Shown piece by piece: positions 23,443 to 62,180 of a stretch of DNA of 64,000 nt; within the stretch, counting starts at the first letter, position 1; each line of letters starts with the position of its first letter. The translations under genes were made by a program, and so were the position numbers. Origin of the DNA: Pseudo-nitzschia pungens (Eukaryota > Bacillariophyta > Bacillariophyceae > Bacillariales > Bacillariaceae); NCBI GenBank assembly GCA_037355855.1, contig CM074758.1:5491001-5555000 (forward strand), given 5' to 3'. The notes beneath the pieces were generated by a model that worked only from the letters and a program-made list of their open reading frames with translations, ran no database searches and was not told where the DNA came from.

Positions 23443-23463
23443 CTTCCCAGCCGGGGCCTGAAA

Positions 23464-31204: not shown

Positions 31205-33907
31205 TTGCAAAACCAATCCTCCACCAAGAGACCCAAGAGTCCACCAAAACCAGCAATCACCTTGCCTCCAGCGCCACAGGCCCTGGATGCCAGTCCAGCA
31301 CAGCTGACTGGGATGACGCAAGGAGGAGATCTCCCGGAGAAAAAGGGGAAGGAACCTACAGGATGGAGTCCTGTTGAGCGCTTAGCAAAGACTGCAACAG
31401 CAGCAACCACAAAACACGTTCGATTCTCCGAAGAGAGCAATTCGAACATGGATCCGAATCGGAAACAAACGAATCGATCCAAGGGTACAGACGCATCATC
31501 AATTCATTCAATCGACCAGACAGCAACCACAAAACACGTTCGATTCTCCGAAGAGAGCAATTCGAACATGGATCCGAATCGGAAACAAACGAATCGATCC
31601 AAGGGTACAGACGCATCATCAATTCATTCAATCGACCAGACAGCAACAATAAATAGACCACTCTTGTCTCTAGCAAGAAATTGGTCTACGGGTACAGCAA
31701 AAAATCTCTATTGCAACACCCAAAACTCCAAAGACTACACCAAAGGAGGTGCGCTGGAGCAAAATTATTTAAAGCTGCTGTCGACTACTGGAAATCCAGT
31801 AGAACAGGCATCGAATAAGAGCAACGTGGCTCCTATTCTTTTAACAAAAGTACAGTACATACAAGGCATACCAACGAAAACAAGACCACTACTCGCACTA
31901 CTAGATAGTGGATCATCCGGAACTCTAATCAACAAAAGAGCCCTTCCATTCGGAACACTACCAATCAGAAGCAAGCATCGAGTCATAACTACTACAGCAA
32001 ATGGGAACTTCGATACTACAGAATACGTCATCATGAAGAACCTCAACTTACAAGAGTTTGGCAACTACACGATCGACAAACAACAAGCAAGACTCTTCCA
32101 TTCACCCGACTGCAGATATGATCTAATACTAGGCAGAGACTTCCTCCACCTAGCACAGATCAATCTCCTATTCAAAGAAGGAGCAGTCCAATGGATGGAT
32201 CGGACTATTCCAATGAAAGATACATCTCTATACCATGAGTCCGACTACACTACACTCATGGAAGAACTTGAAGACGCTGAACTCTTTGCTGATGATCTCT
32301 CCTTTGCCAATCCATATAAGTCCAAAGTTATTCTCGACAGAGCCTACCAAGAAACAGATCCATCCACAGTTGCACAACAACAATCACACATGTCCAAAGC
32401 AGAACAACAACAATTCCAAGCAATACTAAACAAGTATCCCAATGTATTCAACGGCGAACTAGGAAAATATCCACACAAGAAGATCTCTCTAAGACTGAAG
32501 CCCGGATCCAAGCCCATACACAAAAAGCCTTATCCAGTTGCATACAAAAGAGAAGACCTATTCAAAAGGGAACTCCAGAATCTCTGTAATGATGGAGTAC
32601 TCAAGCGCTGCACTGGACCGGCCGAATGGGCATTCCCCACCTTTATTGTTCCAAAGAAAGACAACAGAGTTAGATGGGTATCAGACTTCAGAGAACTCAA
32701 TGAACTTCTTGAGCGCCGACCTTATCCCATACCTAGGATACAGGACATCATGAATAAGAGGGGCAAGTATACTCATTTCACCAAGATTGACTTGTCCATG
32801 CAATACTACTGCTTTGAACTCGACGATGCAAGCAAGAAACTCTGCACCATAGTCACACCATATGGTTGCTATGAATACCAAAGACTACCAATGGGTGTCA
32901 AAGTCTCTCCAGATGTTGCCCAGCAACTAATGGAAGATATCCTACAAGATACCAACTGCACTGTTTATATTGATGATATAGGCGTCTGGACCAATGGATC
33001 CTTTGATCTCCACATGCAAACCATTGACAAGATTCTACATCGGCTCAACGACAATGGACTCAAGTGCAACCCACTCAAGTGTGATTGGGCTGTACAAGAA
33101 ACTGACTTCCTAGGCTACTGGATGACTCCCACAGCAGTTAAGCCATGGAGAAAGAAAATCGAAGCTATCTTACATATGGATCGACCTCGAACCATCACTC
33201 AAGTCAAGTCCTTCCTAGGAGCAGTTGGATACTACAGAGATATGTGGCCTCACAGATCGCATGTCCTATCTCCTCTCTTTGATATAACTGGTACGCCCAA
33301 GACTCCTCAAGCAGCTGCCATCAAAGGCAAGCAAAGGAAGGCTCCTTCGACTTTCACTTGGGGACCAGCTCAAGACAAAGCCTTTCAAGAAATGAAAGCA
33401 ATGGTGGCAGCAGATGCGCTGAACACCTATCCAGACCTTAACAAGCCCTTTGAACTGTACACTGATGCCTCAGACCTCCAGCTCGGTGCTGCCATAATAC
33501 AAGATGGCAAGCCCATTGCATATTGGTCCAAGAAACTATCCGATGCCCAAAAGAACTATACCACCATGGAGAAAGAACTCCTAGCGATTGTACTCTGCTG
33601 CAAAGAGTACCGAAAAATGTTACTTGGTGGTGTTATCAATGTATACACTGACCATAAGAACCTTACCTTCCGGACGCTCTCAGTCCAACGCGTCCTCCGG
33701 TGGAGACTATTCCTAGAAGAATTCGGCGTAAACCTCACCTATGTTGAAGGCAAGAAGAATATTCTTGCTGATACCTTCTCCAGGCTCCCCCGGATGGATC
33801 CACCCACTGTAGGGAAGAAAGAAGCCCTTGGTAAGGGCACTCTTATCGATTTCTTGAAACTTGAAGTCCCCGAACAAGTTGTCTCAGCGTCCGTCTGCCA
33901 ACCATAA
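31205..33907 (+). CDS. Gypsy pol polyprotein lacking integrase
   Basis: Opens directly after the gag UGA and in the same frame, 900 codons. The aspartic protease is near residue 232 (LLDSGSSGTLINKRA). Reverse transcriptase has FPTFIVPKKDNRVRWVSDFR, FTKIDLSMQYYCFELDD and the catalytic VYIDDIGVW near 586. RNase H has LYTDASDLQLGAAI near 752, YTDHKNLTFRTLS and the tether NILADTFSRLPR. The frame then ends at 33907 before any integrase HHCC or DDE motif, although Ty3-type pol normally continues with integrase. The product could reverse transcribe but not integrate on its own. A 40-codon segment at 31401-31640 is tandemly duplicated. Confidence 0.85.
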   Translation: MQNQSSTKRPKSPPKPAITLPPAPQALDASPAQLTGMTQGGDLPEKKGKEPTGWSPVERLAKTATAATTKHVRFSEESNSNMDPNRKQTNRSKGTDASSIHSIDQTATTKHVRFSEESNSNMDPNRKQTNRSKGTDASSIHSIDQTATINRPLLSLARNWSTGTAKNLYCNTQNSKDYTKGGALEQNYLKLLSTTGNPVEQASNKSNVAPILLTKVQYIQGIPTKTRPLLALLDSGSSGTLINKRALPFGTLPIRSKHRVITTTANGNFDTTEYVIMKNLNLQEFGNYTIDKQQARLFHSPDCRYDLILGRDFLHLAQINLLFKEGAVQWMDRTIPMKDTSLYHESDYTTLMEELEDAELFADDLSFANPYKSKVILDRAYQETDPSTVAQQQSHMSKAEQQQFQAILNKYPNVFNGELGKYPHKKISLRLKPGSKPIHKKPYPVAYKREDLFKRELQNLCNDGVLKRCTGPAEWAFPTFIVPKKDNRVRWVSDFRELNELLERRPYPIPRIQDIMNKRGKYTHFTKIDLSMQYYCFELDDASKKLCTIVTPYGCYEYQRLPMGVKVSPDVAQQLMEDILQDTNCTVYIDDIGVWTNGSFDLHMQTIDKILHRLNDNGLKCNPLKCDWAVQETDFLGYWMTPTAVKPWRKKIEAILHMDRPRTITQVKSFLGAVGYYRDMWPHRSHVLSPLFDITGTPKTPQAAAIKGKQRKAPSTFTWGPAQDKAFQEMKAMVAADALNTYPDLNKPFELYTDASDLQLGAAIIQDGKPIAYWSKKLSDAQKNYTTMEKELLAIVLCCKEYRKMLLGGVINVYTDHKNLTFRTLSVQRVLRWRLFLEEFGVNLTYVEGKKNILADTFSRLPRMDPPTVGKKEALGKGTLIDFLKLEVPEQVVSASVCQP
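31401..31640 (+). repeat. Perfect 120-bp tandem duplication in Gypsy pol
   Basis: 31401-31520 and 31521-31640 are identical by eye. The duplication is in frame and encodes twice a 40-residue Ser/Asn/Lys-rich segment (KHVRFSEESNSNMDPN...) in the linker before the protease. Lack of divergence suggests that it arose recently. Confidence 0.9.
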
Positions 33908-42075: not shown

Positions 42076-42600
42076 ACCAACACCGGTGAGATATCTTCAT
42101 ACGGTAAGGTAACCTTACTCGTAAGTTACCTGGTAATCTTACCGGTACGGTAGACAAAAGAAGTTTTGTGTGTTCGGCTTGTGTTTTAACCTTACTTTTA
42201 CAACAGTAAGGTTACCTTTAACAGTTCACCGTTCACCCTAACTTACCAGTTAAACCTTACCGTACGGTACGGTACCGGTAGGTAAAAAACCTTATTTGAA
42301 GTTGGCCGGTAAAAACTCCTACCGTACCGGTACCGGTAGAGTAAGGTTTTACTGTATCTGTTGAGAAGTAACCTTACTACGTTCAACGTAGCTTCTTGTG
42401 TTTTCTACCATACCCTTTCCCGACTGATGTTACGAGTAATCTAGTTACCTACCGGTACGTACTCTGGTACGGTAGGTTGTGGTACTGGTAACCTTAGTTG
42501 CAAATGGTTGCAAACGGTGCACCGTTTTGTTTTTTTAGCCGTTGGTATTAGGTAACCTTACCTTATTATGTATGAATAACGAGGAACCGCAATTCGGAAT
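42076..42600. repeat. Cluster of GTAAGGTTAC-like degenerate repeats
   Basis: A dense run of GGTAAGGTAACCTTAC, CTTACCGGTACGG and related words, many of them self-complementary, between the hairpin element and the Helitron-like element. No gene. Confidence 0.65.
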
Positions 42601-42944
42601 TAGTGGAGTTGTAAAAATTGGAATTGCATAAACATTTTTAGAACGTAGGTCTTAGTTCGGCAGAACTGGGGGTCTGGGGGTGGAGAAAAGTGAAAAAGTC
42701 GTAAAAAAAGGTTTTTTGTGGTAGGCTTCTACGAGAAATTGAACTGTTAAAACCTGGAAAGAAACACTTAATTCTGTGGAAGCCATTAAAAATGATTATA
42801 AATGAGGTATGGCAATATAAAATTAGAATATAGCATGTCGTAATCGGTAAAGACAGTTATTTCAGTTACATAAAATGAAAAATGAGATTGAAAACGAGAG
42901 TTTCAAATTATAATTTAGAAATTAGCATGTGAATAATGGTTTGG

Positions 42945-43295
42945 ACAGTTATTTCGATTGTTATTATTATTAAGGCTTTAATAATAAATTAGCATGTCAG
43001 TAATGGTTTGGACAGTTATTTCGATTATTATTATTATCATGGCTTTAATAATGTAGTACGAATTAAGAGTCATTATCATGGCTTTAATAATGTAGTACGA
43101 ATTATTTTTGATTTCAAATTATTTTCGTTAGTCTTATTCCGATTGTTATTATTATCATAGTACGAATTAACAGTCATTATCATGGCTTTAATAATGTAGT
43201 ACGAATTATTTTTGATTTCAAATTATTTTCGTTAGTCGATTGTTATTATTATCATGGCTTTAATAATGTAGTACGAATTATTTTTGATTTCAAAT
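42945..43295. repeat. AT-rich tandem array upstream of the first Helitron gene
   Basis: Units built from TTATCATGGCTTTAATAATG, TAGTACGAATTATTTTTGA and TTCAAATTATTTTCGTTAGT recur about four to five times with variable spacing. They may be part of the promoter or an end-recognition region of the element. No function is evident. Confidence 0.65.
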
Positions 43296-43538
43296 TGTAT
43301 AAAATTTTAGCGAAACGTTGTTTTCTTTTTTATTTAATTTTAGCTTTGTTTAATTTAGTCATGGAAAATGTGGCAATAATAATGATGATTAAATCATTTT
43401 TGATTACAATTTTAGGCAAACAATCGTCGGTTTCTTTTTTTTCGTTGTCGTTAAGGTTACCATACAGTATTATCATTATTTCATTTCATTCAAAGGAAGA
43501 AAGCAACACCGAGGATTGTTTGTGCTGTAAAATCAACG

Positions 43539-45449
43539 ATGACTAAACCAGACGATCCCGGAAAGAAAGATGATATATCAAAAAAAGAGCAACCACAAGC
43601 CAAAAAAGTCCGGCGGAAAAGTGCGCCGCGTTTTCAATACAATATTCCATTCCGATCATTGAACGAAAAAAAAGTGAACGACATGCTGAATGCGAAGGGA
43701 GGATATTTTCATGCATACAAAAAATACAATGATGCGAACTGTGAAAAGTTATATTTTCCGTATGTGATTCCTTCAGATTACATGAATTATTTATGTCCTT
43801 GCGGCGAAAAGTTGAAAACACCGCAGGCAGGATACAACCATATGAAGACGTGTAAAACTGTTGACGAAGGGCTTCAAAACAAAACATTTAATCAATCTAT
43901 CCCCAAATATCTGGAACAAAAGAAAATCCTTCATCTTGAAATGAACCCGTCGCAACCATCACTACTCTGCATATGTGGTGCACGACTTTGTTACAGGAAA
44001 ATTGAAAATCACATGAAGGACTGTGGTGCCGTTAAAGACATGCGAAAAAAGTTTGAAGAAAAAAAAAAATTGACCAGTTTCAGAAATAATGCTGAGATTG
44101 AGAACGCAGTGTTGGAAGAAGGATATACAAACATTCCACATATGTTTTTCAAGAATTGCTTCGACTCAAGTTTTGTTGGAACAAAAGACAGTGCGTTCCT
44201 GAAACATGTCGTGAATGTCAACAATTTACGGGACGAAGAATGTGTCTTTTTTTTGCCACGAAATGAACATGCAATGTTCGAAAACCCATCATCGATTGTG
44301 GAAAGGTTGCAATCAGAAATTGTTTGCAACTGGGATAAATTGAAAGAAATGGTGGAAAAGAAAGGAATGAAAAACCAAAAAATATCAGCTACAACAATTC
44401 AAAGCTATCGATACGAGATCATGTTAGATTTTGATGCAAAAAACATGAGTTCAAGTGATGTGTGGAACCAATTTATCAGAAAGACAGAATTTGATCCCGA
44501 AGATATGACAAAATTGTTAAGTTTTGTGGAGGAAGTAACAAAACTATATTGTTTGCCAAATGATGATGTTGACAATTGGGTTGTTGCGACACCAAGTCTT
44601 ATCATCACTGAAAAATCATGTCCTCAGACAGTTCATCTTGATATTTTAGGTGATGAACAGAAGCAATTTGGTATGATTCTATCGCCTGGCCAAGCATCAA
44701 CACAAGCATTTTTGCCAATTAAAAATATGGGGGAAATTCAATATGCAGACGTGATCGATTTACTACAATGGGGAATTACGTCACATCCTGAATTGCGTTG
44801 GCTTTCTCCTCCAGAACATTTTTTTACACAATTGAAAGGTAAAACAGATGCAATAAAAAATTGGGAACCATCATACAGTGACCTTTTCAGGATTGTGCAT
44901 AAGGTTTGTTACAAAAATAAAGTGAATCTGAAAACTGGGTATTGTGACGAGGATGGACCTTTTGATTACAGAGCAGTAAGGTTGTTAAATGCACCAACAT
45001 TTTCATTCGTGAAACTAAATGGAGGTGTGATGCATGCAGGTTCAGGAACAACAGATGAAAGTTTGAGGATTTTGTTATTTTGGACAGCTCACAAAAAGAC
45101 TGGAAAGAAATATGATACAGATAGACAAGAAACCGCCCTCACAAGAATTGTGGATATTGCAAAAGATTTGTGGCCAGTGCTCGATCCATCCGAAAAAGAA
45201 AACATGATTTGGGTGATCTATTTCATATTTTATGTTTCTGAAAAAGCATATCAAGAGACAGCAAGTCCGACGTTTCGAAATTATTTTGGTGTTGAACAGT
45301 TAATTGACTCTTTTTTGAGAGTTAGTTCTCTCCCATCGCAATCAAAATTGGTATTTTTCAAGTATCTATCATCAATTAAGGATCTTTTTGAAGAAGAAGA
45401 GACACGACCAAGACGTTCCACTTCACTTCCCGTTCGGAATAAAAGTTAA
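43539..45449 (+). CDS. Zinc-finger protein with putative 2OG-Fe(II) dioxygenase domain (Helitron cargo)
   Basis: 636 residues, single exon, intact. A basic N-terminus (KKVRRKSAPR) is followed by two C-x-C...H-x3-C motifs, LCPCGEKL...HMKTC (residues 86-105) and LCICGARL...HMKDC (144-162), likely zinc fingers. The C-terminal half has CPQTVHLDIL (H366, D368), then GGVMHAGSGTTDESLRILLF (H499, R510). The HxD, distal His and Arg 11 residues later, inside strand-like segments, match the active-site pattern of the double-stranded beta-helix 2-oxoglutarate/Fe(II) oxygenases. Members of that superfamily (TET/JBP) modify DNA bases and are known to ride on some transposons, but I cannot assign a substrate here. 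The product could also be a structural relative without activity. Recognition is by motif only. Confidence 0.6.
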   Translation: MTKPDDPGKKDDISKKEQPQAKKVRRKSAPRFQYNIPFRSLNEKKVNDMLNAKGGYFHAYKKYNDANCEKLYFPYVIPSDYMNYLCPCGEKLKTPQAGYNHMKTCKTVDEGLQNKTFNQSIPKYLEQKKILHLEMNPSQPSLLCICGARLCYRKIENHMKDCGAVKDMRKKFEEKKKLTSFRNNAEIENAVLEEGYTNIPHMFFKNCFDSSFVGTKDSAFLKHVVNVNNLRDEECVFFLPRNEHAMFENPSSIVERLQSEIVCNWDKLKEMVEKKGMKNQKISATTIQSYRYEIMLDFDAKNMSSSDVWNQFIRKTEFDPEDMTKLLSFVEEVTKLYCLPNDDVDNWVVATPSLIITEKSCPQTVHLDILGDEQKQFGMILSPGQASTQAFLPIKNMGEIQYADVIDLLQWGITSHPELRWLSPPEHFFTQLKGKTDAIKNWEPSYSDLFRIVHKVCYKNKVNLKTGYCDEDGPFDYRAVRLLNAPTFSFVKLNGGVMHAGSGTTDESLRILLFWTAHKKTGKKYDTDRQETALTRIVDIAKDLWPVLDPSEKENMIWVIYFIFYVSEKAYQETASPTFRNYFGVEQLIDSFLRVSSLPSQSKLVFFKYLSSIKDLFEEEETRPRRSTSLPVRNKS

Positions 45450-45970
45450 GGTTAAATGCAAAATAAAAGTTAACGTTTAGAAGAAGATTTTCATTCATGT
45501 AATAATTATTGACCTGTAATTCCATCAATCAGATACCATCAATCAGAATACCGTAGTATTTGAAGGAGAAGAAATCTTTCATTTCATTAAGTAATAACTG
45601 AGTACGTGGTGTAAAAATGGAGAAGAGAACTTTCATTTTATTAAGTAATACTTGACTACGTGGTCCAAAAAAGTTGACGTGCAACCTAGAATTGGAACAT
45701 GTCACATTCCAACAGAACCACATTCTGTGAATTTTATTCGTGTTATTCTAATACTGTTGTTCTAATACCAGTAATCGAAAACAAACCACTTACGGAATCG
45801 ATTTTAATTTGTAAAATTGTCGTGCTAATACCCGTAATCAAAATCAAATCACATACAAAATCGATTTCAATTTGTAGAATAGTCATACCGCACAACACAT
45901 TCTCACAAACATATTTCAAATCTTAAAAATACAAATTCAATCGTTTTCATCCCTCAATCAACGAAAAAAA
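45450..45970. repeat. Helitron spacer 1 with short tandem duplications
   Basis: Two near-copies of a unit with TTTCATTTCATTAAGTAAT and ACTACGTGGT (about 45577 and 45640), then two units with CTAATACC-GTAATC, AATCGATTT-AATTTGTA (about 45760 and 45825). No gene. It separates two plus-strand genes of the element. Confidence 0.55.
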
Positions 45971-46720
45971 ATGGCAAAAACTACTGAAAATGCATCAACC
46001 AAAGCGAAAACAGGATCTCCAAGACGAGCTAAAGTGAAGAGAGCGCCTATTCCAAGATCCAAGAACAAAACCACCAAGAATGTTATTCATGTTTTCCAAG
46101 CTGGAACTGATGGAAGGTTTCTTGTTGGTCTCATGTTGCAAGTCAATGGTTATGGTGGATATGTGAAACCAATTCTTGATGCCATCGAAGAGGGGGATCT
46201 CAACAAATATCCCAAATTAGGAGAAGATTATTTCGATATCAAGTGCAAAGCGCCGCTCTTGTTGCGCAAAAGTCATGAAGACGATGTCAAAATTCCGAAC
46301 AATCCCAACAACAAGTTTGGACGTGTAGGGATTGTGGCCTATCCCGGTTCCAAATATGAAGATATCGATATGACTGTGAAAAAGGAGTTTCGCGATTTGT
46401 TGGTCAAAATCTTCTGTGATGACCAAGGAAAAAGCCCAGACGAGGCTTTTGTCCCGTTCCAACCAAACCATTGTCGTTATCCACCAAATGTAATGCCCTT
46501 GTCTTCTCTCGACACCATTTTCATGGATGAGTCGGTTGATCATATTCTTTTTAACTATCACGTTCCCGAAGAGATTCCTCCCGGCAAAAACATTTATGAA
46601 GAACTCATTAAAAAAGAGGGTTTGAAAGACATTTACACTCGAAAGAAGAATGGTAAGTTTAGTTTCTATGCCAGGGAAAACCTTGGGTATCCAGATGACG
46701 TCAAAATGTACGAAGCTTGA
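45971..46720 (+). CDS. Unknown 249-aa basic protein of the Helitron-like element
   Basis: An intact single-exon frame. The first 40 residues are Lys/Arg-rich (SPRRAKVKRAPIPRSKNKTT), like a nuclear localisation or nucleic-acid-binding tail. A globular part follows: NVIHVFQAGTDGRFLVGLML, LLLRKSHEDDVKIPNNPNNK, VGIVAYPGSKYEDIDMTVKK and FVPFQPNHCRYPPNVMP. I recognise no family and name no function. Its place between the zinc-finger dioxygenase-like gene and the Rep-helicase, on the same strand, suggests an accessory role in replication or transposition. The low-GC coding sequence matches its neighbours in the element. Confidence 0.7.
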   Translation: MAKTTENASTKAKTGSPRRAKVKRAPIPRSKNKTTKNVIHVFQAGTDGRFLVGLMLQVNGYGGYVKPILDAIEEGDLNKYPKLGEDYFDIKCKAPLLLRKSHEDDVKIPNNPNNKFGRVGIVAYPGSKYEDIDMTVKKEFRDLLVKIFCDDQGKSPDEAFVPFQPNHCRYPPNVMPLSSLDTIFMDESVDHILFNYHVPEEIPPGKNIYEELIKKEGLKDIYTRKKNGKFSFYARENLGYPDDVKMYEA

Positions 46721-47210
46721 ATGTGTTAAAAATTGATGTATTGTACAGATATTTAGTGTTAAAACGTGAATGGAACGATGTGAACAGAGTTTTAAGTGAA
46801 AACAGTTTTTAATCATAAAAAAAAAATTATATGTTATTCAAGATATTAACATACCGGTATGTGTTCGTGTGTGTGTGTTCCTGTGTCATTTAAAAATGAA
46901 ATCAAAACTAATTTCAATCGTCATACATAAGCCGAAATTCGAGTTGTTAGACATATGATTATACATGTGCCGTGTTAGACATATGATTATACATGTGCCT
47001 TCCAAGATCGCATCCAAAAAAAGGAATCAAAACGAATTTGAATGGTTACAGATATGCCCTATACGAATCAAAACAAATTTCAAATGTTATACATATGCTC
47101 TTTAAATTACTGGTTGCCCGAACTAATTTCAAAAAATAGCCTTCTACCTAAAAGTGAATTCTAATTTTTTTTTTTTTTTGTTGGTATATTAATCAATTCA
47201 AAGCATAACA
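46721..47210. repeat. Helitron spacer 2 with iterated AATCAAAAC...ATACATAAGCC motif
   Basis: At least three copies of an AATCAAAAC-NNATTT-NAATCG-ATACATAAGCC-like unit (about 46908, 47027 and 47067), and a perfect 25-bp direct repeat with TTAGACATATGATTATACAT at about 46947 and 46975. A T-run precedes the Rep-helicase start. The same unit recurs in the spacer at 53040-53690. Confidence 0.6.
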
Positions 47211-50200
47211 ATGAAATACCCATACACTATTGTGACCGAAGATAATATCAAAAATTCCTACAACAAGGCAATGAATGCACGGAACAATTTGATCCATTTC
47301 AGCGATGGAACATATAGATCAAAAGTTTGTTGCCTTTGTCACAGATTTATCAGAAATGATGATGAAAAAAAATTGGACATTGAATTATTGGTGCATCCGA
47401 ATGTCAGACCCTTTTTTGATAAAACATTGATTAAATGGGAGAAAATGCCATTTCAATTTGCATCACCTTCAGTTCGGGAAAAAGTTTTGCGACAATATGT
47501 TCAAAAATGTATTCCAAACAAAAGAAAAATAAATGGAATAAACGAAAACCTCGACAAGTTCATCTTGTCCCCAAACACCTATTCAATCACACCAAAAACT
47601 AAGAAACACAAAATATCCCAATTTGGATGTTGTACAAATTGTTGGAAAGGTATAAAGAAGATGACAAAAAATGATGATGAAGATACAGTGCCACCAGATA
47701 ACTGTATTGCAAATGGAAAAATCTTTGGTTTTGCACCAAAAGAATTGACACAACTGACACCAACTGAATTAGCAATTATAGCTGGTGCAAGAATTGATCA
47801 ACACTTGTTTTGCTTTCATGCAGGACAACATCAAATGATTAAAGGATATCATGTAATGAGAAAAAATGATCAACACTATACAAATGGTGTTTTGAATTTC
47901 ATGGATGAAGTTGGAAAAGGAGAAATACAAATCATTTTGACTGGACCTTTCACAAACCTCCAGAAAATAAAAGTTAGACAACTTATGACAGTTAACTTAT
48001 CAAGAACGAAAACAGCCTTGATTTGGATGAAAGAAAACACAACATATATGAAAGATGTTGACATCAACGAATCCAATATTATTCAACCCGTTTTCTTCGA
48101 CAAAACAAGCGCAGTGGATTCATCCAATTCAAACATTGAACAACAATTTGAGATGCATGTTGTTTTCCCCAATGATTCAAATTTAACAAGAAACAATGGA
48201 GGATTTGATACTGATAAAGATCTCAAAGACCATTGCCTCGCAAATCTTCTCAATCATCAATCAAAAATGGTTTGCAGGTCTTCCAGAAATATTTTGAAAG
48301 ACTATGATGGGGAAAATTTCATTAGAGCATTTCCATTACAATTTCCATATGGAGTTGGACATCAAGACATAAAAGGCAAAAACAAATTGACTCCCTCCTT
48401 CTTCAAATATGTGTCAGAGTTATCAACAAAATCTTTTCACATACCTTCTTTTGTTTCAGTTGTCTGCAGCATCCAAATAAGAACAAAAATGTTACAAAGT
48501 TCTTTTTTGAGAACAACACCAGGTCAAAGATGCAATTTTGCTGAACTAAATCCAAAAGAGTTAAAACAAGCTTCAAAGAAAGTGTTGGAAAGTAATGGTA
48601 AACCAAACACAAATGAAGAGGTTTTTCTATCCAAAATCAAAAGTATTACTAAATCTATTGGTAACACGAAAGGATCATCCGAGGCTGCAAGAGCAAAAAT
48701 GTTTCAAATGATGGCAGTCTATGGATTACCATGCATATTGTTCACAATAACACCTGATGATACTATCAATTTCAGAATTGAGCTTTTGGAGAAAAAAAAA
48801 ATACATCACGATGCACTACCAAATACCTCTGGAATGAGTGACAGTTATCTCTTCAACTTTGTCCATGATTGTCTTGAAAGAAGAACAAAATATCCTGGAC
48901 TTTGTGCATTGGAATTTGAAAATGTGGTTGACATAACCATAAGATATTTGTTGGGTTGGATTTTAACCGGGAAGAAAAAAGGAAATGATCCAAAATTAGG
49001 CATTTTTGGAGATCTTGATGCATATTCAATTGCTATTGAAGAACAAGGACGAGGAACATTACATGCTCATTTTGTGCTTTGGGTGAGCAAATGGAATACA
49101 ATTATAGAAGATTTGTATGATCCTGAATTGAAAGACGAAGTAATTAAAACAATGAAGGACCATGCAGATAGAATTATGACTACCAAACTTTTCCCCAACG
49201 CTCATAACATTGAATGTACCACACCAACATGCACAGAATTCATTCTTCAATCTGGTGACAAATGCAATAACCAAGATCTACGAAATTTGAGGCAAAGAAA
49301 TGGTAAAACATCATTAGGTGAAAAGTGTATTTTAAAATGCAGATCATGCCAGAAATTGTACACTTCCGAAGATATTGCACGGGCAAGTATACCATCATTG
49401 AGAATCTTACCAGAATCAAACTATCATTCAGACTTTTTCATGTATCACAAATTGTTCCATGGAATAACCAAAAAGTCAAAATGTGCAGTTACACTGGAAA
49501 AAGAATTGTATGACAATTTGATTGCAGAAAAGAAAAAAGCAAGGATCCCTGCTTATAATGGCTCTGTATATCAAAAGACTTTACATGCAGTTTCAATTCT
49601 TCGAAATATGCACAAATCAACACATGTCCCTTCTTGTCATAAGAAAGACAAAGATGGAGATTGCAGATTCAAACTCCCAATGAGACAATGTGATGAAACT
49701 ACAATTTTTTTCAATGACAAAATCACAACATGGTATGATTGGCGAGGCAATTGCAATGAAAAGAATTTGTTTCAATGGGAGTTTCAACGTGCCCATCAGG
49801 ATTGTTTTGCCAACCTAAACAATTCAGTTGTGAGTGCAACTTTTCAATGCAATAATAATGTTGTTTGGGGTCTTGACGGTTCAGGGATTTATTATGTAAC
49901 ATGTTATGCATCCAAAAGCACACAAAAAGACGACAATGAAAAAATAAATTCAGTTGCTGAAAAAGTTTTGAACCAAATTGCAAAAAAAGAACAGGAAATC
50001 AAAGACCAACAAGATACCAATATAGATCAACAGGGCATCAATGACCAACAAAATACCAATAGTGATACTCAAGATCGCGAGGAAAATGATGATCAAAATG
50101 ATGATCAAAATGATGATTTGATGAAGGAAAAAAAAGGAATGCGTACTGTTCTTAGTACTTTATTCCGGGTTACTCAAGACAATGTTATGTCTGCACCAAT

Positions 50201-53030
50201 GGCTTCATTCCTTATTCGTAATGATACCAGGTTCAAATTTTCCAATCAGAACTTTTCTCCGCTATTCTTAAGATCATTTCTGGAGGGTACTATAAATCAT
50301 GGTGTTTTGCAGAGATATGATGGTGAGTCAACACTTCCAACATATATGTGTCAAGCTGCAAATTACATCTACCGCCCTTTAGATTTGGAGAACATATGTT
50401 TATATGATTTTGTAAAGGACTATGTTTGTGATACTTTCAAGAGAACCAAAAGCCTTCTTTTCCAAGACCAACATCCAAGTGGAAACTACCAATTTTGCTA
50501 TGAAAGGAAGGAACCAGCAATACCTTCCATTTCATACACAAATTTCATTTCAACTGCAAAATTTGAGGGGTTTGACATTTTGACATTCAATCCAATTCCC
50601 AACAATGAAACACATGACAGAGTCCATAAACAAATGGAGATTTATGCAAAAACAGCTTGTATTTTGTTTTGTCAATTCAGGGACTATTCTGACATCCAAG
50701 TGAACTCCAAATATTTACCATATTTCCAAACTTTTGTTCTCAACAAAGGATTAAAAGCAGCTCATACACAAATTCTAAAAAATATACAACAAACTTTCAA
50801 CAGCTTGGACTGTGACCGGCAATTGGATGTTTTGGAACAAACAACAAAGGGACCTTCATCCAACACAACACATGAAGATGACACAAATGACATTGATGAT
50901 ATTCATGAAATGGAAGACAACTTTTGCATGCAAGAATTAGATGCATTTAATCATACAGTTTTGGGATTGGATGACAAAAATTCGTTCAGAACAAACGACA
51001 ATCATTTTTCAATGAAAACATCAATTATTGTGAAATCAGGACAAAACAATTGTGGTGAAAGACTGATACATGCACCATCAGTAGCTCAGTCAAATTCAAT
51101 CTTTGACATACAAACAAGACAAGAAAATACAATTCAACAAACAAACTTGCATAGTCAAAATCTGAAAAGGAAATGGGATGACCTTCAACTTGATAATTTG
51201 ATTACTGTCATGATTACAAAGACAAGTGTTGTGACAACTGAAATCAATACAAACATCTTTGTGGATGGAACATGTCAAAACATTATTCAGTATGGACATG
51301 AAATTTTTGGTGGAGATATTCATCAAATAGCTGCTTTCACTTACATTGTGTCTGGATTCATTTTGCGAGTATGTGATCGGCAGAGAATTAATGAAGAACT
51401 GTATGGACAAGAATCTACAATTGCAATTTCAAGACATCAAAAAATGCATTACAATTCAGAAAAAAAAAAATTGCAAAAACTGAACAAAAATGGAGAACAA
51501 TTTGTTGCATTGTTATCAGGTGCAGGAGGAACAGGTAAAAGTCGTGTCATCAAGGGTATTTTATCTTACTGCAAACAGTTCTGTGAAAACTTGGACATTC
51601 AATTTACAAAACAAACAATTGTTGTCACAGCATTGACTGGATGTGCTGCAGTTTCCATTCATGGTTCCACTCTTCACAGCGCATGCCACATACCAATCAA
51701 CAAAAAAGATTTTAACTACAACAAGCTGAGTGAATTTCAAGATGATTGGAAAGATACTGAAATGATCATTATCGATGAAATATCTTTCGGATGCCAAGAA
51801 TTGTTATCCAAACTTAACAAATGTTTAAATGAATTGAAAGACGCTCCAAGATCATCATCATTGTATGGTGGTATACATGTTGTGTTTGCCGGAGATTTTA
51901 ATCAACTTCCTCCAATCAAAGGAGAAAGACTCTACAAAGACCTTGAATGTGAATATTTTGGCAATGCAATTGATGTTTTTCTTGAATTGAAAACCAATCA
52001 CAGATTTAACAATGACAAACCATTTGGGGATTTGTTGTACCGAATTTGTACTTCAGGTGGAGATGAATCTGATGAAAAAACGATCAATTCGAGAGTTGTT
52101 GATGAGTCATGTAATATACCAACAAATGTTGCATATGCAGTTGCAGAAAACAAGGACAGATGTGCAATAAATGATGGTATTTTTGCACTTCATCTTCAAA
52201 ACACACATTCAAGAGATCCTAATGATCCCATCCCAAACCATACAATCTGCATCAAAGCAAGTGATTTAGAATACAAATACAAAGCTTCTTCAAAAAATTA
52301 CAAGACCTTTCCAGATAATGGAGACATTCTATATGCTTCTTGTGCAGACTGTCACGTAACTCAACAATTTGGAACAAATAAGATTGATCCATTTCTTAAG
52401 TTGTACACAAATTGCCCTTTGATGATAACAGAAAACATTGGAGTTGGAGAATCGATTGCAAATGGAACAATGTGCAAATTCAAAGGATTAATTTTGAAAC
52501 AACAATTCAATGCGTGTGACGTAATGGAAACAATTCAAATTGATGGATATTTTGTCAACAGTATTGAAGCAAACAAAATTGAATCCATTCAACTTGAAAT
52601 CACTGATAACCAAGAAAATAATGAACAACCAAGAATTTACAATCTTAAACTGGAGGAAAAAGCAACATATGCAAAATGCATGTTTCCAACATTATTTTCA
52701 GAAACCATCGATCACAACACACCGAGATCTGCAATCAATATCAAATTGAGACAATTTAAACTCAATGTCTCTCATGCACGGACAGTCCATAAACTTCAAG
52801 GCAGATCAATTAACCATTTAGTAATTTCTACGTGGAATTATAAAATGGAAAATTGGATCTATGTTGTTCTGTCTAGATGTCGAACACTAGGTGGTTTATA
52901 TTTGAAATCACCATTGAAAATTCAAAAATCAAAAGGAATGTCAAATGAAGTTAACAAATTTTTCCAACACTTCAGATTATACAAAAAAACACCTCAAACA
53001 CTGATGGAACAAATTATGGATTTCCAATAA
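47211..53030 (+). CDS. Helitron-type Rep-helicase
   Basis: 1,939 residues, one uninterrupted exon. N-terminal Cys pairs (KVCCLCHRFI, FGCCTNCWKG) suggest a zinc finger. The Helitron Rep domain follows: LPCILFTITPDD, then the HUH metal motif in GRGTLHAHFVLW near residue 618 and the two-tyrosine motif GIYYVTCYASKS near 892, with a Cys-rich insert between them. An acidic Gln/Asp/Asn linker (about 925-970) precedes a Pif1-type superfamily-1 helicase with Walker A GAGGTGKSRVI near 1437, Walker B MIIIDEISF near 1518, GDFNQLPPI, TNHRF, ARTVHKLQGRSI and VVLSRCRTLGGL near 1886. The family nicks and unwinds DNA for rolling-circle-like transposition in the nucleus. Every catalytic motif is present, so the protein looks functional. 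It is long for the family. Confidence 0.95.
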   Translation: MKYPYTIVTEDNIKNSYNKAMNARNNLIHFSDGTYRSKVCCLCHRFIRNDDEKKLDIELLVHPNVRPFFDKTLIKWEKMPFQFASPSVREKVLRQYVQKCIPNKRKINGINENLDKFILSPNTYSITPKTKKHKISQFGCCTNCWKGIKKMTKNDDEDTVPPDNCIANGKIFGFAPKELTQLTPTELAIIAGARIDQHLFCFHAGQHQMIKGYHVMRKNDQHYTNGVLNFMDEVGKGEIQIILTGPFTNLQKIKVRQLMTVNLSRTKTALIWMKENTTYMKDVDINESNIIQPVFFDKTSAVDSSNSNIEQQFEMHVVFPNDSNLTRNNGGFDTDKDLKDHCLANLLNHQSKMVCRSSRNILKDYDGENFIRAFPLQFPYGVGHQDIKGKNKLTPSFFKYVSELSTKSFHIPSFVSVVCSIQIRTKMLQSSFLRTTPGQRCNFAELNPKELKQASKKVLESNGKPNTNEEVFLSKIKSITKSIGNTKGSSEAARAKMFQMMAVYGLPCILFTITPDDTINFRIELLEKKKIHHDALPNTSGMSDSYLFNFVHDCLERRTKYPGLCALEFENVVDITIRYLLGWILTGKKKGNDPKLGIFGDLDAYSIAIEEQGRGTLHAHFVLWVSKWNTIIEDLYDPELKDEVIKTMKDHADRIMTTKLFPNAHNIECTTPTCTEFILQSGDKCNNQDLRNLRQRNGKTSLGEKCILKCRSCQKLYTSEDIARASIPSLRILPESNYHSDFFMYHKLFHGITKKSKCAVTLEKELYDNLIAEKKKARIPAYNGSVYQKTLHAVSILRNMHKSTHVPSCHKKDKDGDCRFKLPMRQCDETTIFFNDKITTWYDWRGNCNEKNLFQWEFQRAHQDCFANLNNSVVSATFQCNNNVVWGLDGSGIYYVTCYASKSTQKDDNEKINSVAEKVLNQIAKKEQEIKDQQDTNIDQQGINDQQNTNSDTQDREENDDQNDDQNDDLMKEKKGMRTVLSTLFRVTQDNVMSAPMASFLIRNDTRFKFSNQNFSPLFLRSFLEGTINHGVLQRYDGESTLPTYMCQAANYIYRPLDLENICLYDFVKDYVCDTFKRTKSLLFQDQHPSGNYQFCYERKEPAIPSISYTNFISTAKFEGFDILTFNPIPNNETHDRVHKQMEIYAKTACILFCQFRDYSDIQVNSKYLPYFQTFVLNKGLKAAHTQILKNIQQTFNSLDCDRQLDVLEQTTKGPSSNTTHEDDTNDIDDIHEMEDNFCMQELDAFNHTVLGLDDKNSFRTNDNHFSMKTSIIVKSGQNNCGERLIHAPSVAQSNSIFDIQTRQENTIQQTNLHSQNLKRKWDDLQLDNLITVMITKTSVVTTEINTNIFVDGTCQNIIQYGHEIFGGDIHQIAAFTYIVSGFILRVCDRQRINEELYGQESTIAISRHQKMHYNSEKKKLQKLNKNGEQFVALLSGAGGTGKSRVIKGILSYCKQFCENLDIQFTKQTIVVTALTGCAAVSIHGSTLHSACHIPINKKDFNYNKLSEFQDDWKDTEMIIIDEISFGCQELLSKLNKCLNELKDAPRSSSLYGGIHVVFAGDFNQLPPIKGERLYKDLECEYFGNAIDVFLELKTNHRFNNDKPFGDLLYRICTSGGDESDEKTINSRVVDESCNIPTNVAYAVAENKDRCAINDGIFALHLQNTHSRDPNDPIPNHTICIKASDLEYKYKASSKNYKTFPDNGDILYASCADCHVTQQFGTNKIDPFLKLYTNCPLMITENIGVGESIANGTMCKFKGLILKQQFNACDVMETIQIDGYFVNSIEANKIESIQLEITDNQENNEQPRIYNLKLEEKATYAKCMFPTLFSETIDHNTPRSAINIKLRQFKLNVSHARTVHKLQGRSINHLVISTWNYKMENWIYVVLSRCRTLGGLYLKSPLKIQKSKGMSNEVNKFFQHFRLYKKTPQTLMEQIMDFQ

Positions 53031-53701
53031 AGTATACCACATCCACGGCAAAAAAAGAAATCAAAAAAAATTTTAATATCAATACATAACCCTAACTTAT
53101 AATTATTTAACAATCACATAATTCAAATCAATACATCACTAACGTTCAGGCACAAACACATATCAAAAAATTCTAATCAAAAACGATTCTAATCGTAATA
53201 AATAAGCCTAACTAATCGTAAAATTAAACCAAAACCATTTTTAATCACAAACCATAACCACAAAAAAAAAATACTGTATTTGGCAACGACCACCACCACC
53301 ACAATGAAATCAAAAATAACTTTAATCACATTAAATAAGCCAAAATGAAATCAAAAACCTTTTCAACCACGATACATAACCCTGAATTATAATTATTTAA
53401 CCCATACCAGATTCGTGCCCCAAAAATTACTTACATTCGCGCAAAAAAATGTAATCAAAATCGATTTTAATCTTAATACATATGCCTAAAAAATTGTACA
53501 ATTAAATCCAAAACACAAACACAGTACTACTAAAAGACCACGATGTAATCAATAATAACAAATGAAATCAAAAACCTTTTCAACCACAATACATAACCCC
53601 AAAAAATAATGAACGTAGTGACAACATAATAACCCTACTTTATACCTTTATCTTCGTAAACTCCTGCAAATCAATAAAAATACTTCATTCTTTCTCCTTA
53701 A
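53031..53701. repeat. Helitron spacer 3 with iterated AATCAAAAA...ATACATAACCC motif
   Basis: About six copies of the 35-40-bp motif already seen upstream of the Rep-helicase (about 53068, 53176, 53305, 53343, 53453 and 53567), here in the convergent gap between the plus-strand helicase and the minus-strand peptidase. No coding potential. Both genes end into it, so 3'-end formation signals may also lie here. Confidence 0.65.
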
Positions 53702-55523
53702 TCATTTTTTTTGGAAAAGTTCTTCGAAATCTTTCGGTCTATCACCCATAATTTCGTGGTCCAAATGCTTTCCATCACTTACAATTTCATACTCATCAAA
53801 ATGATCATACAAATCAGTAACAAGAGTTTTCAACTCTTCTTCATTCATCTTCGATATCAAAATTCGCTGGGGAATCTTTCGAATGGGATTATGAAAAATC
53901 CCATTAGAATCAGGATGACAGCTAACCTCGTTGAATAACACACCAAACACATTTGTTCTTGGCAGATTTACATCACCGGATTCATATTGGCACATGTCAT
54001 GATATGTATAACAACGTTTTCCCAGTTGATATAGGGCTTTTCTGTGCGCATCATCGTGATAATTGCCAAGACTTTGAGCTTTTTCACCCAGCAATCTTTG
54101 TGCGTTAGATCTTCGAGCTTTCTTTTTTTCTTTCGATTCTCCTGCCGAGGAGGATTTTCTCTTTTTCTTTCCCATGACATCGACAAATGCCTTCACTTCC
54201 GCACCAATCTGACCCAATGTTTTCTTCGACTTTTTTGACAGTTTGTCATCAACCATTTCGATCTGTCGAACGCCATATGAATTACGTGGAAATTCTTGGT
54301 CACATCGATTTGAAACTTTTCCAAAACACATCGCAACCTTTCTGATATCTTCTTTTAAGCAATTCACGTCCCCATCAATTCGAAACCTATCAAAATCGAT
54401 CAAGCTCGCATTGCGGAAATAAAGATTTCCTGATTCGTAATATTTCATCACGGTGTTCCGGTTCAAAATGCACTCGTACCCACAGGACCAATCATTTTTC
54501 TGCTGTTTCACTAAAAAAAAAAAGGGGCGTTAGCTTATAAAATAAAATAGCATTCTTACAAACAAAAAAAAACTTACCACTAAGTGAAATACAAGGCAAC
54601 GTGTCGCGATTAAAACACACGCCTTCAATTCCATCGTGTCGAGAACAACATTCCTTCCAAATTCTTCGCAACTTTTTCCCAACCTTGCCGGTGTTATGAG
54701 GGTTCTTCTTCGAATTCGAATTTGACTCCAGTGAATTCAAATGCAATATAAATGGATACTCATCATGTTCTTCATTCAATCCTTGCCCGACATTTTTCAA
54801 CTTAAAAACAAAAAATTGCGAGTAGTGCCCTCCCTCCCAAATAATGCCGTCGATTACATCGAAATCAAAAAAACCATTCGAAGACAAACACAAAGGCTTC
54901 ATAGTGTTCATAAGCCCGTTGAATTCGCTTTCTCTTTTTGATGAATCTCCATTCATTATATGGTAAAACTCCACAGGAAGAGTCAACCATTGTTCTGTGA
55001 TATTAATGAAAAAATAGTTCGTGCAAAAATCGATAATAGAACTCGATGCGAATAACTGCCTTGTGTCATTACGAAAAATCTTTGGATCTCGTGAGACAAT
55101 CTCGAAGTCTTCCGGCGTAAATATAACATTATCCAATGGAAACATTACAGAATGGTTTTCGTCAAAGAAGTCGCTGTTGGCCGCACGAATACCATTCAAA
55201 CCATAACAATTCATCTTAGAATCCAATTCTTTGATAAGGAATGTGTCAAGACAAAAAGAAATATCATCACAATGAATGGCGGGGATTGTGATAACATTCG
55301 AAGACGCGCCGTCTGCATTCATTGATTTCTTCCCGAAGTTCTTATTGATTAAGAACGATTGTTGTTTTTTTTTAACGTCGTTTGCCAACTCCGGAGAACC
55401 CGAAGAAGACGAATCAGTCGAAGAAGAATTAACGAGAGCCTTGCCATTAGGTCCACTTATAAATCCCTTCGATTTCATTGCGAGCCTTAGAGTCTCGAAA
55501 GATTTACCGGTTGAACGAGACAT
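53702..55523 (-). CDS. Ulp1/C48-type cysteine peptidase of the Helitron-like element
   Basis: Exons 55523-54578 and 54510-53702 join across a 67-bp GTAAGT...TTTAG intron to 584 residues. The splice creates the peptidase signature SVKQQKNDWSCGYECI (Q319, C325). Upstream in exon 1 lie WEGGHYSQFFVF (His 233) and PFILHLNSLES, where the usual catalytic Asp is Asn (263). The order His, Asp/Asn, Gln, Cys is that of Ulp1/SENP-type enzymes, which cut SUMO or other ubiquitin-like proteins from targets. The C-terminus has a Lys-rich nuclear signal-like GKKKRKSSS and KEKKKARRSN. The start is placed at MSRSTGKSFETLRL; 24 in-frame upstream codons encode a hydrophobic stretch and are a less likely start. 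It is divergent to the other element genes and overlaps none of them. Confidence 0.78.
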
Positions 55524-56296
55524 GGTCTTGTTATGAAAGTTGAACAAATTATAAATTATGACGATGGTAAGGCTTACTAATATGATAAAATCCAAAACTT
55601 TTTCACGTGTAATACAGACTATTTACATTGAACCAAACAAGAACAAAACAGCAAACAGAAAAAAAACGTTTTCGAACCAATAACGTGGAAGAAAACATAC
55701 AAATACTAAATAATATGTTCTCAACAGAAAAATCAAATTCACACGATTTCAGAATACCATTCAATGCACTGTAAAATAATAGGAGAATTCATTATCACAT
55801 ACTTCCATAACAAACATAAACAAATATACTCTATTTATTCCAATAACACCAATAAATAATATAACACTTAATACGAAATTTAAAAATATCATGCCTAAAC
55901 ACACGATCTACGTTTTCTTTTCACTTTCTGACTTGTTAATCCAATACTACATGACTGAATATATGTTAATACATAAATTATTACAATCAATCCCCAAAAG
56001 GACGTTACGGGAATTTACAACTCCACACGCTTACCGGAGGCGCCAATTCTTTCTACATGCTTTTTCATCAAAATTTGCGGCGTGATTTTCATACGAAGTA
56101 GTAGTACTTATTTGGTGAATTATGCACGGCAATCTCGTGTGCATCGTTGATCATTGGTTTGTACGAAGTACGGTTTACTTTGTATTCGATTTTACGCAAT
56201 CGACAAGACATCTTGAGACTGGCACCGATACTCGCACATAAAATACAATCTTGCTCCAATCTACTTTCAGGAGAAATCTAAAACATCCCTGCTATC

Positions 56297-60432: not shown

Positions 60433-61434
60433 TCACCGGTTCCCGTACACCAAATCGGTTCTCAGAACGTATTTTTGGCCCCCCGTCACCACGTCCGCTT
60501 CGTGTTCCAGGCAGTGTTTTCCGTGCACGTGCAACAGGAGCGCACCGACCTCCGGCTCAAAGGCAAAGGAGGAGGCCCGACGCCCGAATCCTTTGTGAAA
60601 CCGCGTGGCTCCACCCGAGCAGGCCGAGAGATACACGAGCATGGTCATCTCGGTGGTTCCGCATCCCGGGACGACGTCGCTTCCGTCGACGTGCTTGCCG
60701 AACGAGTGTCCCTCATCGTACCGATAGACGCGAATGTTGGGGTTGCAATGGATTGGCTCGTAGTTGCAGTTGCAGTTGCAGTTGCGGTTGTTGTTGCGCG
60801 GATTGGGAGGAAAGAGATCCGCCGTCTCGGATTGCAACCGGGACAGGATGCTCGTGGGTTCTCCGTTTTCGACGCGGTCGTTGGACAGCGTCAGTTTTCG
60901 CAATCGCTGAAAGATGCGTTCCGACAGTTCCACGGCATTTTCTTGCTGCAGCCGATAGCATTCTCTGTTCGCCATGTACTTGCTGCCGGGGAGAGAAGTG
61001 TATTGGAAGCCACCGCCACTGCCACCGCCACCGCCACCATTAGTACCGTTGCTACCATTACTCCCATTACCGTCGTTGTCGCCAAAGGATTCGCAGAATT
61101 CGATCCACGCCCGGCATTCCTTGTGCGAAAAGAAGGACGGGATCACCCACACCCTTCCCTTGCAGAGTTCGCGGAGCTCCCGGCCGTGGTCCTTGCCGGC
61201 GTACTCGTTGTCCGGCACGAGGTGCAGGGGAAACGAGTCAAAGACCCGCTGGTTGCGACCGCCAACGCGATCGCGATTGCGATCGCTATCGCCGCTCCTC
61301 GACGATTTTCCTTTGCTGCCGCTTGTTGGCTGCGCGGATTTGCTGCTGCCGATTGCTGTTGTTGTTGTTGTTGTTGTTGCTTTTGTGCCCTTTTTCTGGG
61401 TACCAGGCGTATTCTTTCGCTTCTTGTTGGCCAT
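60433..61434 (-). CDS. Prolyl 4-hydroxylase-like 2OG-Fe(II) dioxygenase
   Basis: 333 residues from MANKKRKNTPGTQKKG. An upstream in-frame Met adds 21 residues but runs into a GGCAACAATAG microsatellite. After a disordered Lys/Thr/Ser-rich N-terminus, the catalytic P4Hc-type domain has VWVIPSFFSHKECRAWIEFC, NIRVYRYDEGHSFGKHVDGS (H248, D250), TMLVYLSACSGGATRF, then LEHEADVVTGGQKYVLRTD (H311, K321). The HxD, distal His and Lys that holds 2-oxoglutarate are all present, so an active enzyme is likely, using O2 and 2-oxoglutarate with Fe(II). Substrates may be prolyl residues, but this is not shown. Gly/Asn-rich insertions and a (CN)n run come from trinucleotide and hexanucleotide repeats in the DNA. 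No signal peptide is visible, so a cytosolic or nuclear site is likely. Confidence 0.85.
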   Translation of the reverse strand: MANKKRKNTPGTQKKGTKATTTTTTTAIGSSKSAQPTSGSKGKSSRSGDSDRNRDRVGGRNQRVFDSFPLHLVPDNEYAGKDHGRELRELCKGRVWVIPSFFSHKECRAWIEFCESFGDNDGNGSNGSNGTNGGGGGGSGGGFQYTSLPGSKYMANRECYRLQQENAVELSERIFQRLRKLTLSNDRVENGEPTSILSRLQSETADLFPPNPRNNNRNCNCNCNYEPIHCNPNIRVYRYDEGHSFGKHVDGSDVVPGCGTTEMTMLVYLSACSGGATRFHKGFGRRASSFAFEPEVGALLLHVHGKHCLEHEADVVTGGQKYVLRTDLVYGNR

Positions 61435-62180
61435 GGTTTTGGAGAGATAGAGTCTGCAAGGTTCGAATGGCAGACAATAGGCAACAATAGGCAACAATAG
61501 GCAACAATAGGACCCCGTTCTGTTCTGGATCCCCGATGAAGGATTGCCAATTGGAAGCTCCGTTGGTAAGTTACCGTAAGATTACCCTACGGTAAGGTTA
61601 ATTACCGTACGGTATGACTGTTGAAAGTGATTGTAGCATCGAACGGAAAAAACTGATCAACGCAAGCTAACCTTACCAGTAACTTACGAGTAAACCTTAA
61701 CTTAGGTCCTACTTTACTTTAACTTCGTACGGTAATTAGTACCTATTTTGTGCTGTACGGTAAACCTTACCGTAACTTACTTAGTACTTTCTCGTGTAAT
61801 TACTGTATCGAACAAAACTCGCATCTCTCACTATTATTTTTCGCGCCATCTTCAATCTTTCGTCCGAAATTCGGAATTCGTAATTCGAAATTCCCAGCGC
61901 AGCGTGTCGGACATCGAACACCGGACTGAAGACATATCGTTCTGTACTCGACAATCAAGATCCAGCCCCGGAACGATCTATGATGATGTAGTACCTTACC
62001 AACACCGCACGGTAGTAAATCTTACAGCAGGATGCAGGATGCAGGATTCCATGCACCATCCAACATTGCTCACCAACTACGAGTACGCAACGGGTAAGGT
62101 TACCCCATGATTGATTCCCTCTACCGGTATCGCTATTGGATTACCGTTCTGTTAGATAATCGACAGAGGACATAATACCA
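61435..62180. other. Divergent promoter interval with microsatellite and GTAAGG repeats
   Basis: Between the minus-strand dioxygenase and the plus-strand PGAM5-like gene. A GGCAACAATAG unit is repeated about four times at 61476-61512, and GTAAGGTTAC-like words cluster at 61565-61800. Any promoters here would be divergent. No gene. Confidence 0.5.

Follow-up and report, generated by a model that had tools for sequence, protein, structure and literature searches.

A rolling-circle transposon of the diatom Pseudo-nitzschia pungens keeps three further genes beside its Rep-helicase in every intact copy found

Does an AT-rich stretch in the genome of the diatom Pseudo-nitzschia pungens represent one mobile element, and do the unusual genes beside its replication gene belong to that element or were they only caught up in it? 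The stretch lies in a section of 64,000 nucleotides, here called the window, from contig CM074758.1 of assembly GCA_037355855.1 (C1:5491001-5555000 in our contig numbering), which was compared with the genome sequence of 66.9 Mb in 28 contigs. A preliminary description had proposed a Helitron-like element at positions 42603-56026 that carries a Rep-helicase, a dioxygenase-like protein, a Ulp1-type peptidase and one further protein. Our comparison of copies confirms a single element, while its ends shift slightly: positions 42600-56046 are one intact rolling-circle transposon of the Helitron superfamily, 13,447 bp long in plus orientation and flanked by a host A at 42599 and a host T at 56047, where the copies diverge exactly. 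Chance is no explanation for this element, because it recurs over its full length at unrelated genome sites. As had been stated, the window contains all four genes with open reading frames, and the GC content is 30-39% in 1-kb steps between 43001 and 56000 compared to 34-55% elsewhere in the window.

The search of the genome with the Rep protein gave 25 matches, among them eight intact frames (at least 1928 of 1939 residues), which form four groups. Copy A is the element in the window, copies B and C are 99% identical to it in the Rep protein, and copy D (C12) shares 73%, copies E, F and G (C8, C5 and C6) 55-56% and copy H (C1, 2.27 Mb) 54% of the residues. The genes for a 636-residue protein, a 249-residue protein and the peptidase are found within the mapped ends of all eight copies with intact Rep. 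The first two reading frames are open in each of them and the peptidase match is open in seven; in copy H the C-terminal part of the peptidase contains an in-frame TAG while the Rep frame is open, which counts against the overall explanation given below. The remaining 17 matches to Rep are pieces from five sites (C8 2.74-2.76 Mb, C1 6.70-6.71 Mb, C9 3.69-3.71 Mb, C5 4.33 Mb and C9 2.67 Mb), and some of these fragmented copies lack one or more of the genes, for example the C8 pieces have no 636-residue match nearby and the C5 piece has only the peptidase nearby. The refuting case named in the preliminary description, a Rep-helicase without the flanking genes, did not occur among the eight intact copies, and the gene-poor copies are fragmented. 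The view that the four genes form one element is borne out, since every intact Rep copy holds the other three between the same ends, and the gene set is regarded as established.

The set was kept despite a changed gene order. In copies A-D the peptidase gene follows Rep and is read from the opposite strand, whereas in copies E-H it lies upstream of the 636-residue gene and on the same strand. The peptidase intron lies just before the Q...C motif at the same position and in the same phase in the five spliced copies (A, D, E, G and H), which argues for one origin of the peptidase and its later relocation. The unrooted peptidase tree is neutral in this regard, as it places a peptidase from another transposon between the A-D and the E-H groups; hence, it might also be that the peptidase was acquired separately in the two gene orders. 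Pairwise ratios of nonsynonymous to synonymous substitutions (dN/dS, Nei-Gojobori method NG86) were calculated for 31 pairs of the three cargo genes. They are below 1 in all 16 pairs that could be estimated, ranging from 0.08 to 0.63, with the two highest values coming from close or very similar pairs; the remaining 15 gave no estimate because synonymous sites are saturated. The cargo genes are under purifying selection. Movement must also have been recent, since copies B and C are nearly identical to copy A at the nucleotide level (99.5% across 4.3 kb in the 5' part for B, 99.3% across 3.7 kb for C).

The termini were mapped on both sides in all eight intact copies by comparing copies with different flanks and follow the layout host A, TTAGTGGAGTTGTAAA ... 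TTTACAACTCCAC-N16-CCAA, host T. The 5' terminus (42600-42615, plus) is composed of TTA and a 13-bp inverted repeat, GTGGAGTTGTAAA, at 42603-42615. Its counterpart TTTACAACTCCAC at 56014-56026 opens the 3' terminus (56014-56046, plus) and is followed by 16 nt of weak short hairpin potential and the terminal CCAA. In the window the 13-bp repeat is therefore placed asymmetrically, its 5' arm lying 3 nt and its 3' arm 20 nt inside the respective end, and copies E-H display a shorter terminal inverted-repeat match (10 bp searched, at most one mismatch). Reading of the junctions revealed an A before TTA(G/A)TGGAGTTGTAA in all 13 distinct insertions, in 12 of them as AA, and CCAAT closes the 3' side in 8/8 intact copies, beyond which the sequences differ. 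A target-site duplication is not visible at the copies' junctions. The simplest reading of the junctions is that an element TTAG...CCAA has been placed between A and T. The weak 3' hairpin, a structure associated with Helitron1 and Helitron2, has a stem of 3 bp in the window (-2.0 kcal/mol, z -0.09) and in copy E (-1.4, z -0.56) and of 5 bp in copy D (-3.4, z -1.86); in the window copy it is no better than in shuffled sequence, the 5' end has no convincing hairpin, and Rfam gave no match in the window. The 5' leader contains AT-rich subterminal direct repeats at 42821-43309 (plus; units of about 24-89 bp, repeat families D3, D4, D6, D7 and D9), and the length of this repeat region is not the same in copy A and copy C.

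The ends are also found without the full gene set. Searches gave at least 85 matches with the 5' leader and at least 40 with the 3' end. For pairing we used 39 matches on each side, those of the 5' end having at least 120 bp and a start within query bases 6-12; one 53-bp 5' match (C9:1544480) and one internal 3' match were omitted. A correctly oriented 3' end no more than 30 kb away was found for 29 of the 39 5' ends, while ten stayed unpaired. The paired set comprises three full copies that are almost identical, 13 miniatures of 284-456 bp, 12 copies of 3.2-14.3 kb and one pair spanning 24.4 kb, which is perhaps not a single element. The copy at C3:3528031-3542369 and others of 3-14 kb are long non-autonomous copies that contain the AT-rich leader units many times over in the 5' parts seen, and they may hold captured genes.

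The Rep-helicase itself is encoded by one exon at 47211-53030 (plus, 1939 residues). Pfam matches were obtained for DUF6570 (2e-13), Helitron_like_N (3e-13) and the PIF1 helicase (residues 1425-1601; 2.9e-24), and the frame shows an HUH motif at residue 617 (LHAHF), a two-tyrosine Y2 motif at 894 (YYVTCYASK) and a Walker A motif at 1437. The HUH and Y2 motifs are intact in the four copies checked (the window, D, E and H). In these motifs the frame agrees with the complete HUH-Y2 Rep and Pif1 helicase seen in the preliminary description. An apurinic/apyrimidinic (AP) endonuclease at the Rep C terminus gave no Pfam match at E values up to 5.

To which known system does the element come closest? 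A canonical Helitron (Helitron1) was rejected, because the termini read TTAG...CCAA and not 5'-TC...CTRR-3', and a Helentron in the strict sense was likewise rejected on account of the termini and the missing AP endonuclease match on Rep. Regarding Helitron2, asymmetric terminal inverted repeats are present, whereas the insertion into T runs is absent and the site is A/T. Of the traits of proto-Helentrons, which also include a Rep that groups with those of Helentrons, no endonuclease match, 5'-TT and the A/T site are present. According to the available parts of the published accounts, Helitron2 and Helentrons (PMC5148889, PMC4067079) share with our element the Rep-helicase, non-autonomous relatives and asymmetric inverted repeats, of which the 3' one lies about 20 nt inside; our element differs by the A/T site instead of T runs or TT, the lack of an AP endonuclease and the lack of a convincing 5' hairpin. 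The closest known system is proto-Helentron-Pi of Phytophthora infestans (PMC4067079). As far as described in the accessible text, it is about 14 kb long, has an intronless Rep-helicase without endonuclease, begins with 5'-TT, inserts at A/T without target-site duplication and carries extra genes including a chromatin-type enzyme, there with a SET domain. It also has a first hypothetical open reading frame on the plus strand (218 residues) and a last one on the minus strand (266 residues), which may be counterparts of our 249-residue protein and of our peptidase (exon 2, 268 residues, minus); the hypothetical proteins named in that paper are EEY70650.1 and EEY64853.1. It differs in its 3' end, CTAG instead of CCAA, and in having a SET protein instead of the 636-residue oxygenase-like protein.

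The gene for the peptidase (584 residues, minus strand) consists of exon 1 at 54578-55523 with H233 and N263, one 67-bp GT-AG intron, and exon 2 including the stop at 53702-54510 with Q319, C325 and the C-terminal region. The order H-N-Q-C is found in the six sequences examined, with spacing 30/56/6 in the window; the host C48 protein L057 has H-D-Q-C with spacing 29/47/6. When a profile of the six peptidases was aligned by hhalign to L057, a score of 31.8 (P 7e-4, probability 26%) was obtained with the H, N/D, Q and C residues all aligned, above the maximum of 23.3 in 103 controls consisting of unrelated frames, shuffles and a reversal. Two pieces of a second host C48 gene (L060) score 33.7 and 26.2. 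In single-sequence BLAST against L057, E values of 0.004 (H), 0.005 (G), 0.008 (E), 0.036 (the relative on C7, see below) and 0.91 (D) were found. Several results speak against a C48 assignment: the catalytic Asp of C48 is replaced by Asn, the piece of a third host C48 gene (L056) scores 16.5 and thus below some controls, BLAST of the window peptidase against L057 falls short of significance (E 1.3), four members gave no match to Pfam C48 (PF02902) at E values up to 10, and none of the 23 Peptidase_C48 matches in the genome is an element peptidase. Furthermore, Pfam was uninformative on all members, and the PDB profile search gave chance-level matches only. Motif and profile alignment to host C48 nevertheless agree, in line with the spliced His-Asn-Gln-Cys peptidase of Ulp1 type initially proposed; the relationship is regarded as established, and the designation as a Ulp1-like (C48-like) peptidase with Asn in place of Asp is supported.

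The sole relative of this peptidase found outside the Helitron copies is a 931-residue intronless frame. It belongs to another repeat that resembles a transposon, is about 10.8 kb long and lies on C7 (from about 4542474) and at C2:7090883-7101713 (loci L044, L045 and L078-L082). Its two copies are 99.6-99.8% identical over the fetched parts, the C2 copy has 250-bp inverted termini of 89% identity, and the repeat also has a 1058-residue frame, of which 939 residues were compared with Pfam and gave no match. Two unrelated transposon types of one genome carry the same peptidase family. Canonical Peptidase_C48 (Ulp1) matches occur in large multi-copy frames on C2, C3, C5, C6, C8, C10, C11 and C12, namely three near-identical frames of 1078 residues, four of 1157-1242 residues sharing one score, a further one similar to these four, and seven of 2770-2806 residues, which look like other repeats with Ulp1 domains.

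The 636-residue protein (43539-45449, plus) is more difficult to place. It has two zinc-type motifs CxC-x11-12-H-x3-C (C86/C88/H101/C105 and C144/C146/H158/C162) and a series H366xD368, H499 and R510, and both motifs as well as these four residues are invariant in five aligned sequences that are 41-67% identical to the window protein. The HxD...H...R series resembles the motif of 2-oxoglutarate (2OG) oxygenases, in which an H-to-R distance of 11 is usual, although the motif alone is weak evidence. Searches beyond the motif do not favour an oxygenase. In Pfam, five members gave nothing informative (best ULD_2 at 0.0011 in one of five and Spore_III_AB at 0.0082 in two of five) and no match to TET/JBP or another oxygenase at E values up to 10. 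No relative appeared in the protein database (5274 candidates; with a profile 5616 candidates, threshold E 1) or in the scan of viral contigs, and PHROGs and PADLOC were uninformative, the PADLOC match to PtuB (0.004, 15 bits) over the element proteins being judged as chance. The PDB profile search gave chance-level matches only, and the single-sequence AlphaFold2 model, with a mean predicted local distance difference test (pLDDT) score of 32.8, gives no fold support for an oxygenase. The oxygenase core was also compared with host 2OG, PhyH and JmjC proteins by hhalign. There the best result was P 0.023 and score 22.9 (PhyH), while the 37 controls reach 25.7, two frames of the element's own 636-residue gene scoring about 500 (L003 and L016) having been left out. 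Of the dioxygenase-like character first suggested, the invariant HxD...H...R holds, but Pfam, PDB, protein database, host proteins and AlphaFold2 provide no support. Collectively, the motifs would fit a zinc-finger 2OG oxygenase, a candidate identity that is not established. A host-type 2OG-Fe(II) oxygenase gene lies in the window at 60436-61581 (minus), about 4.4 kb from the Helitron; its PF13640 match of 26.9 bits is just below the cut-off of 27, an equal-scoring match exists at C1:5682650-5682919, and it is unrelated to the 636-residue protein as far as tested.

The 249-residue protein (45971-46720, plus) is encoded directly upstream of Rep on the same strand and has a basic N-terminal tail, with Lys and Arg enriched in its first 38 residues. 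With 53-65% identity to the window protein in copies D, E and H, it is better conserved than the 636-residue protein (41-67%) and the peptidase. It had been described without a family, in agreement with our searches: no relatives were found in Pfam, PHROGs, PADLOC, PDB profiles, the protein database (318 candidates) or viral contigs, an oligonucleotide-binding (OB) fold profile of the RPA or single-stranded DNA-binding type had no Pfam or PDB match, and the single-sequence AlphaFold2 model (mean pLDDT 35.5) was not used. We infer that its most likely role is to bind DNA as an accessory to replication.

The explanation that best covers all observations is an autonomous rolling-circle transposon of Helitron2/proto-Helentron type whose four genes form a fixed set, and we consider the chances of this explanation as a whole to be about even. 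Rep, with its HUH-Y2 and Pif1-type helicase parts, would nick at the A/TTAG end, the strand would be displaced and replaced, and replication would end at CCAA/T and proceed into a new A/T site. The 249-residue protein would most likely assist by binding DNA, and short copies keeping both ends would be mobilised in trans. The Ulp1-like peptidase would most likely act on host proteins or chromatin by removal of SUMO or ubiquitin, and the 636-residue zinc-finger, oxygenase-like protein by oxidative removal of a methyl mark, which would allow expression of the element and keep its replication proteins from being lost. These biochemical activities are all inferred, and a role in counter-silencing is plausible. 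The host genome has seven DNA cytosine methylase matches, so there may be a methylation system for the element to evade.

Alternatively, the extra genes could serve transposition: the 636-residue protein would bind the ends or the target, the peptidase would mature Rep or remove SUMO or ubiquitin from repair factors, and the HxD...H...R series would not mark an oxygenase. We give this a substantial, though less than even, probability. The two invariant zinc-type motifs and the lack of any detectable oxygenase relationship favour it, whereas conservation is strong in the blocks around the four motif residues, whose order and H-to-R distance are as usual in 2OG oxygenases. In the available parts of two papers, Helentron proteases have been proposed to cut Rep subunits or to affect signalling (PMC4067079), and the Ulp1 and OTU domains of Ginger transposases to activate repair factors (PMC2836005).

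That the three genes are passengers, i.e. captured host genes with no role for the element, was rejected because of the fixed set and the selection, and is regarded as very improbable. Gene capture by Helitrons is well known; however, these genes occur in all eight intact copies of the four groups at 41-67% (636-residue protein) and 53-65% (249-residue protein) identity, the dN/dS values are below 1 in every estimable pair, and no free-standing intact host copy of the 249-residue gene or of the 636-residue gene appeared among 13 matches each, those of the latter lying in copies of the element or pieces of it. That the element is a relic or variant form of a viral or virus-like replicon, with the peptidase for maturation and the 249-residue protein for structure or packaging, is just as remote, because the ends and the insertion site are typical of rolling-circle transposons, no capsid or packaging match was found among the four genes and the 636- and 249-residue proteins have no viral-contig relative, even though proteases of the same clan (adenain type) mature virions in several DNA viruses and Polintons.

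Returning to the host-directed cargo, the single ideas have precedents, which are compared here on the basis of the available parts of the papers. Fungal Helitrons with TET/JBP genes, in print since December 2025 (PMC12730594), likewise combine rolling-circle transposition with a gene for a 2OG-Fe(II) oxygenase (putative in our case) that is presumed to act against silencing; our element differs in having no TET/JBP Pfam match in five members, and no peptidase is mentioned in the text available for the fungal elements. The VTD/OTU Helentrons (PMC9741609) resemble it by a cysteine protease that acts, or is thought to act, on ubiquitin-like modifiers, but there the domain is inside the Helitron reading frame, whereas our Ulp1 (C48-like) gene is separate and spliced. 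Ulp1-type domains on DNA transposons are also known from KIU/VANC of the Vandal Mutator-like elements (PMC13317346) and from Ginger1 (PMC2836005), which differ by cut-and-paste movement and fusion of the domain to other proteins. Vandals carrying KIU induce hypomethylation of related copies (PMC13317346). The preliminary description knew of no account of the gene set as a whole. A limited search of the open-licence literature on Helitron cargo gave no description of it, although a RepBase entry may exist and each neighbouring idea (TET/JBP, SET, OTU/VTD and Ulp1) is in print. The novelty lies in the fixed combination and in how strongly the evidence ties the cargo to the element.

More tentatively, and with some doubt, it may be suggested that this lineage has fixed a two-enzyme counter-silencing module, consisting of a Ulp1-type deSUMOylase or deubiquitinase and a 2OG oxygenase from a new family, guided to particular sequences by its zinc fingers, beside a new replication accessory. 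The three would have been kept while Rep diverged to 54% identity, and the place of the chromatin enzyme would be taken by a SET methyltransferase in the relative from Phytophthora. Helitron cargo is mostly viewed as chance capture, whereas here a fixed and selected set is present in every intact copy found despite reordering. The element permits a direct test of whether transposons carry matched enzymes against ubiquitin/SUMO- and chromatin-based silencing of the host, and it supplies two orphan protein families along with a Ulp1-like peptidase.

Two further mobile elements are located in the same window. A Copia-type long terminal repeat (LTR) retrotransposon spans 19660-29193, with RVT_2 at 23443-28089 and two LTRs (19660-20104 and 28725-29193) sharing 99-100% identity, and a retroelement at 31205-33907 contains reverse transcriptase, RNase H and aspartyl protease.

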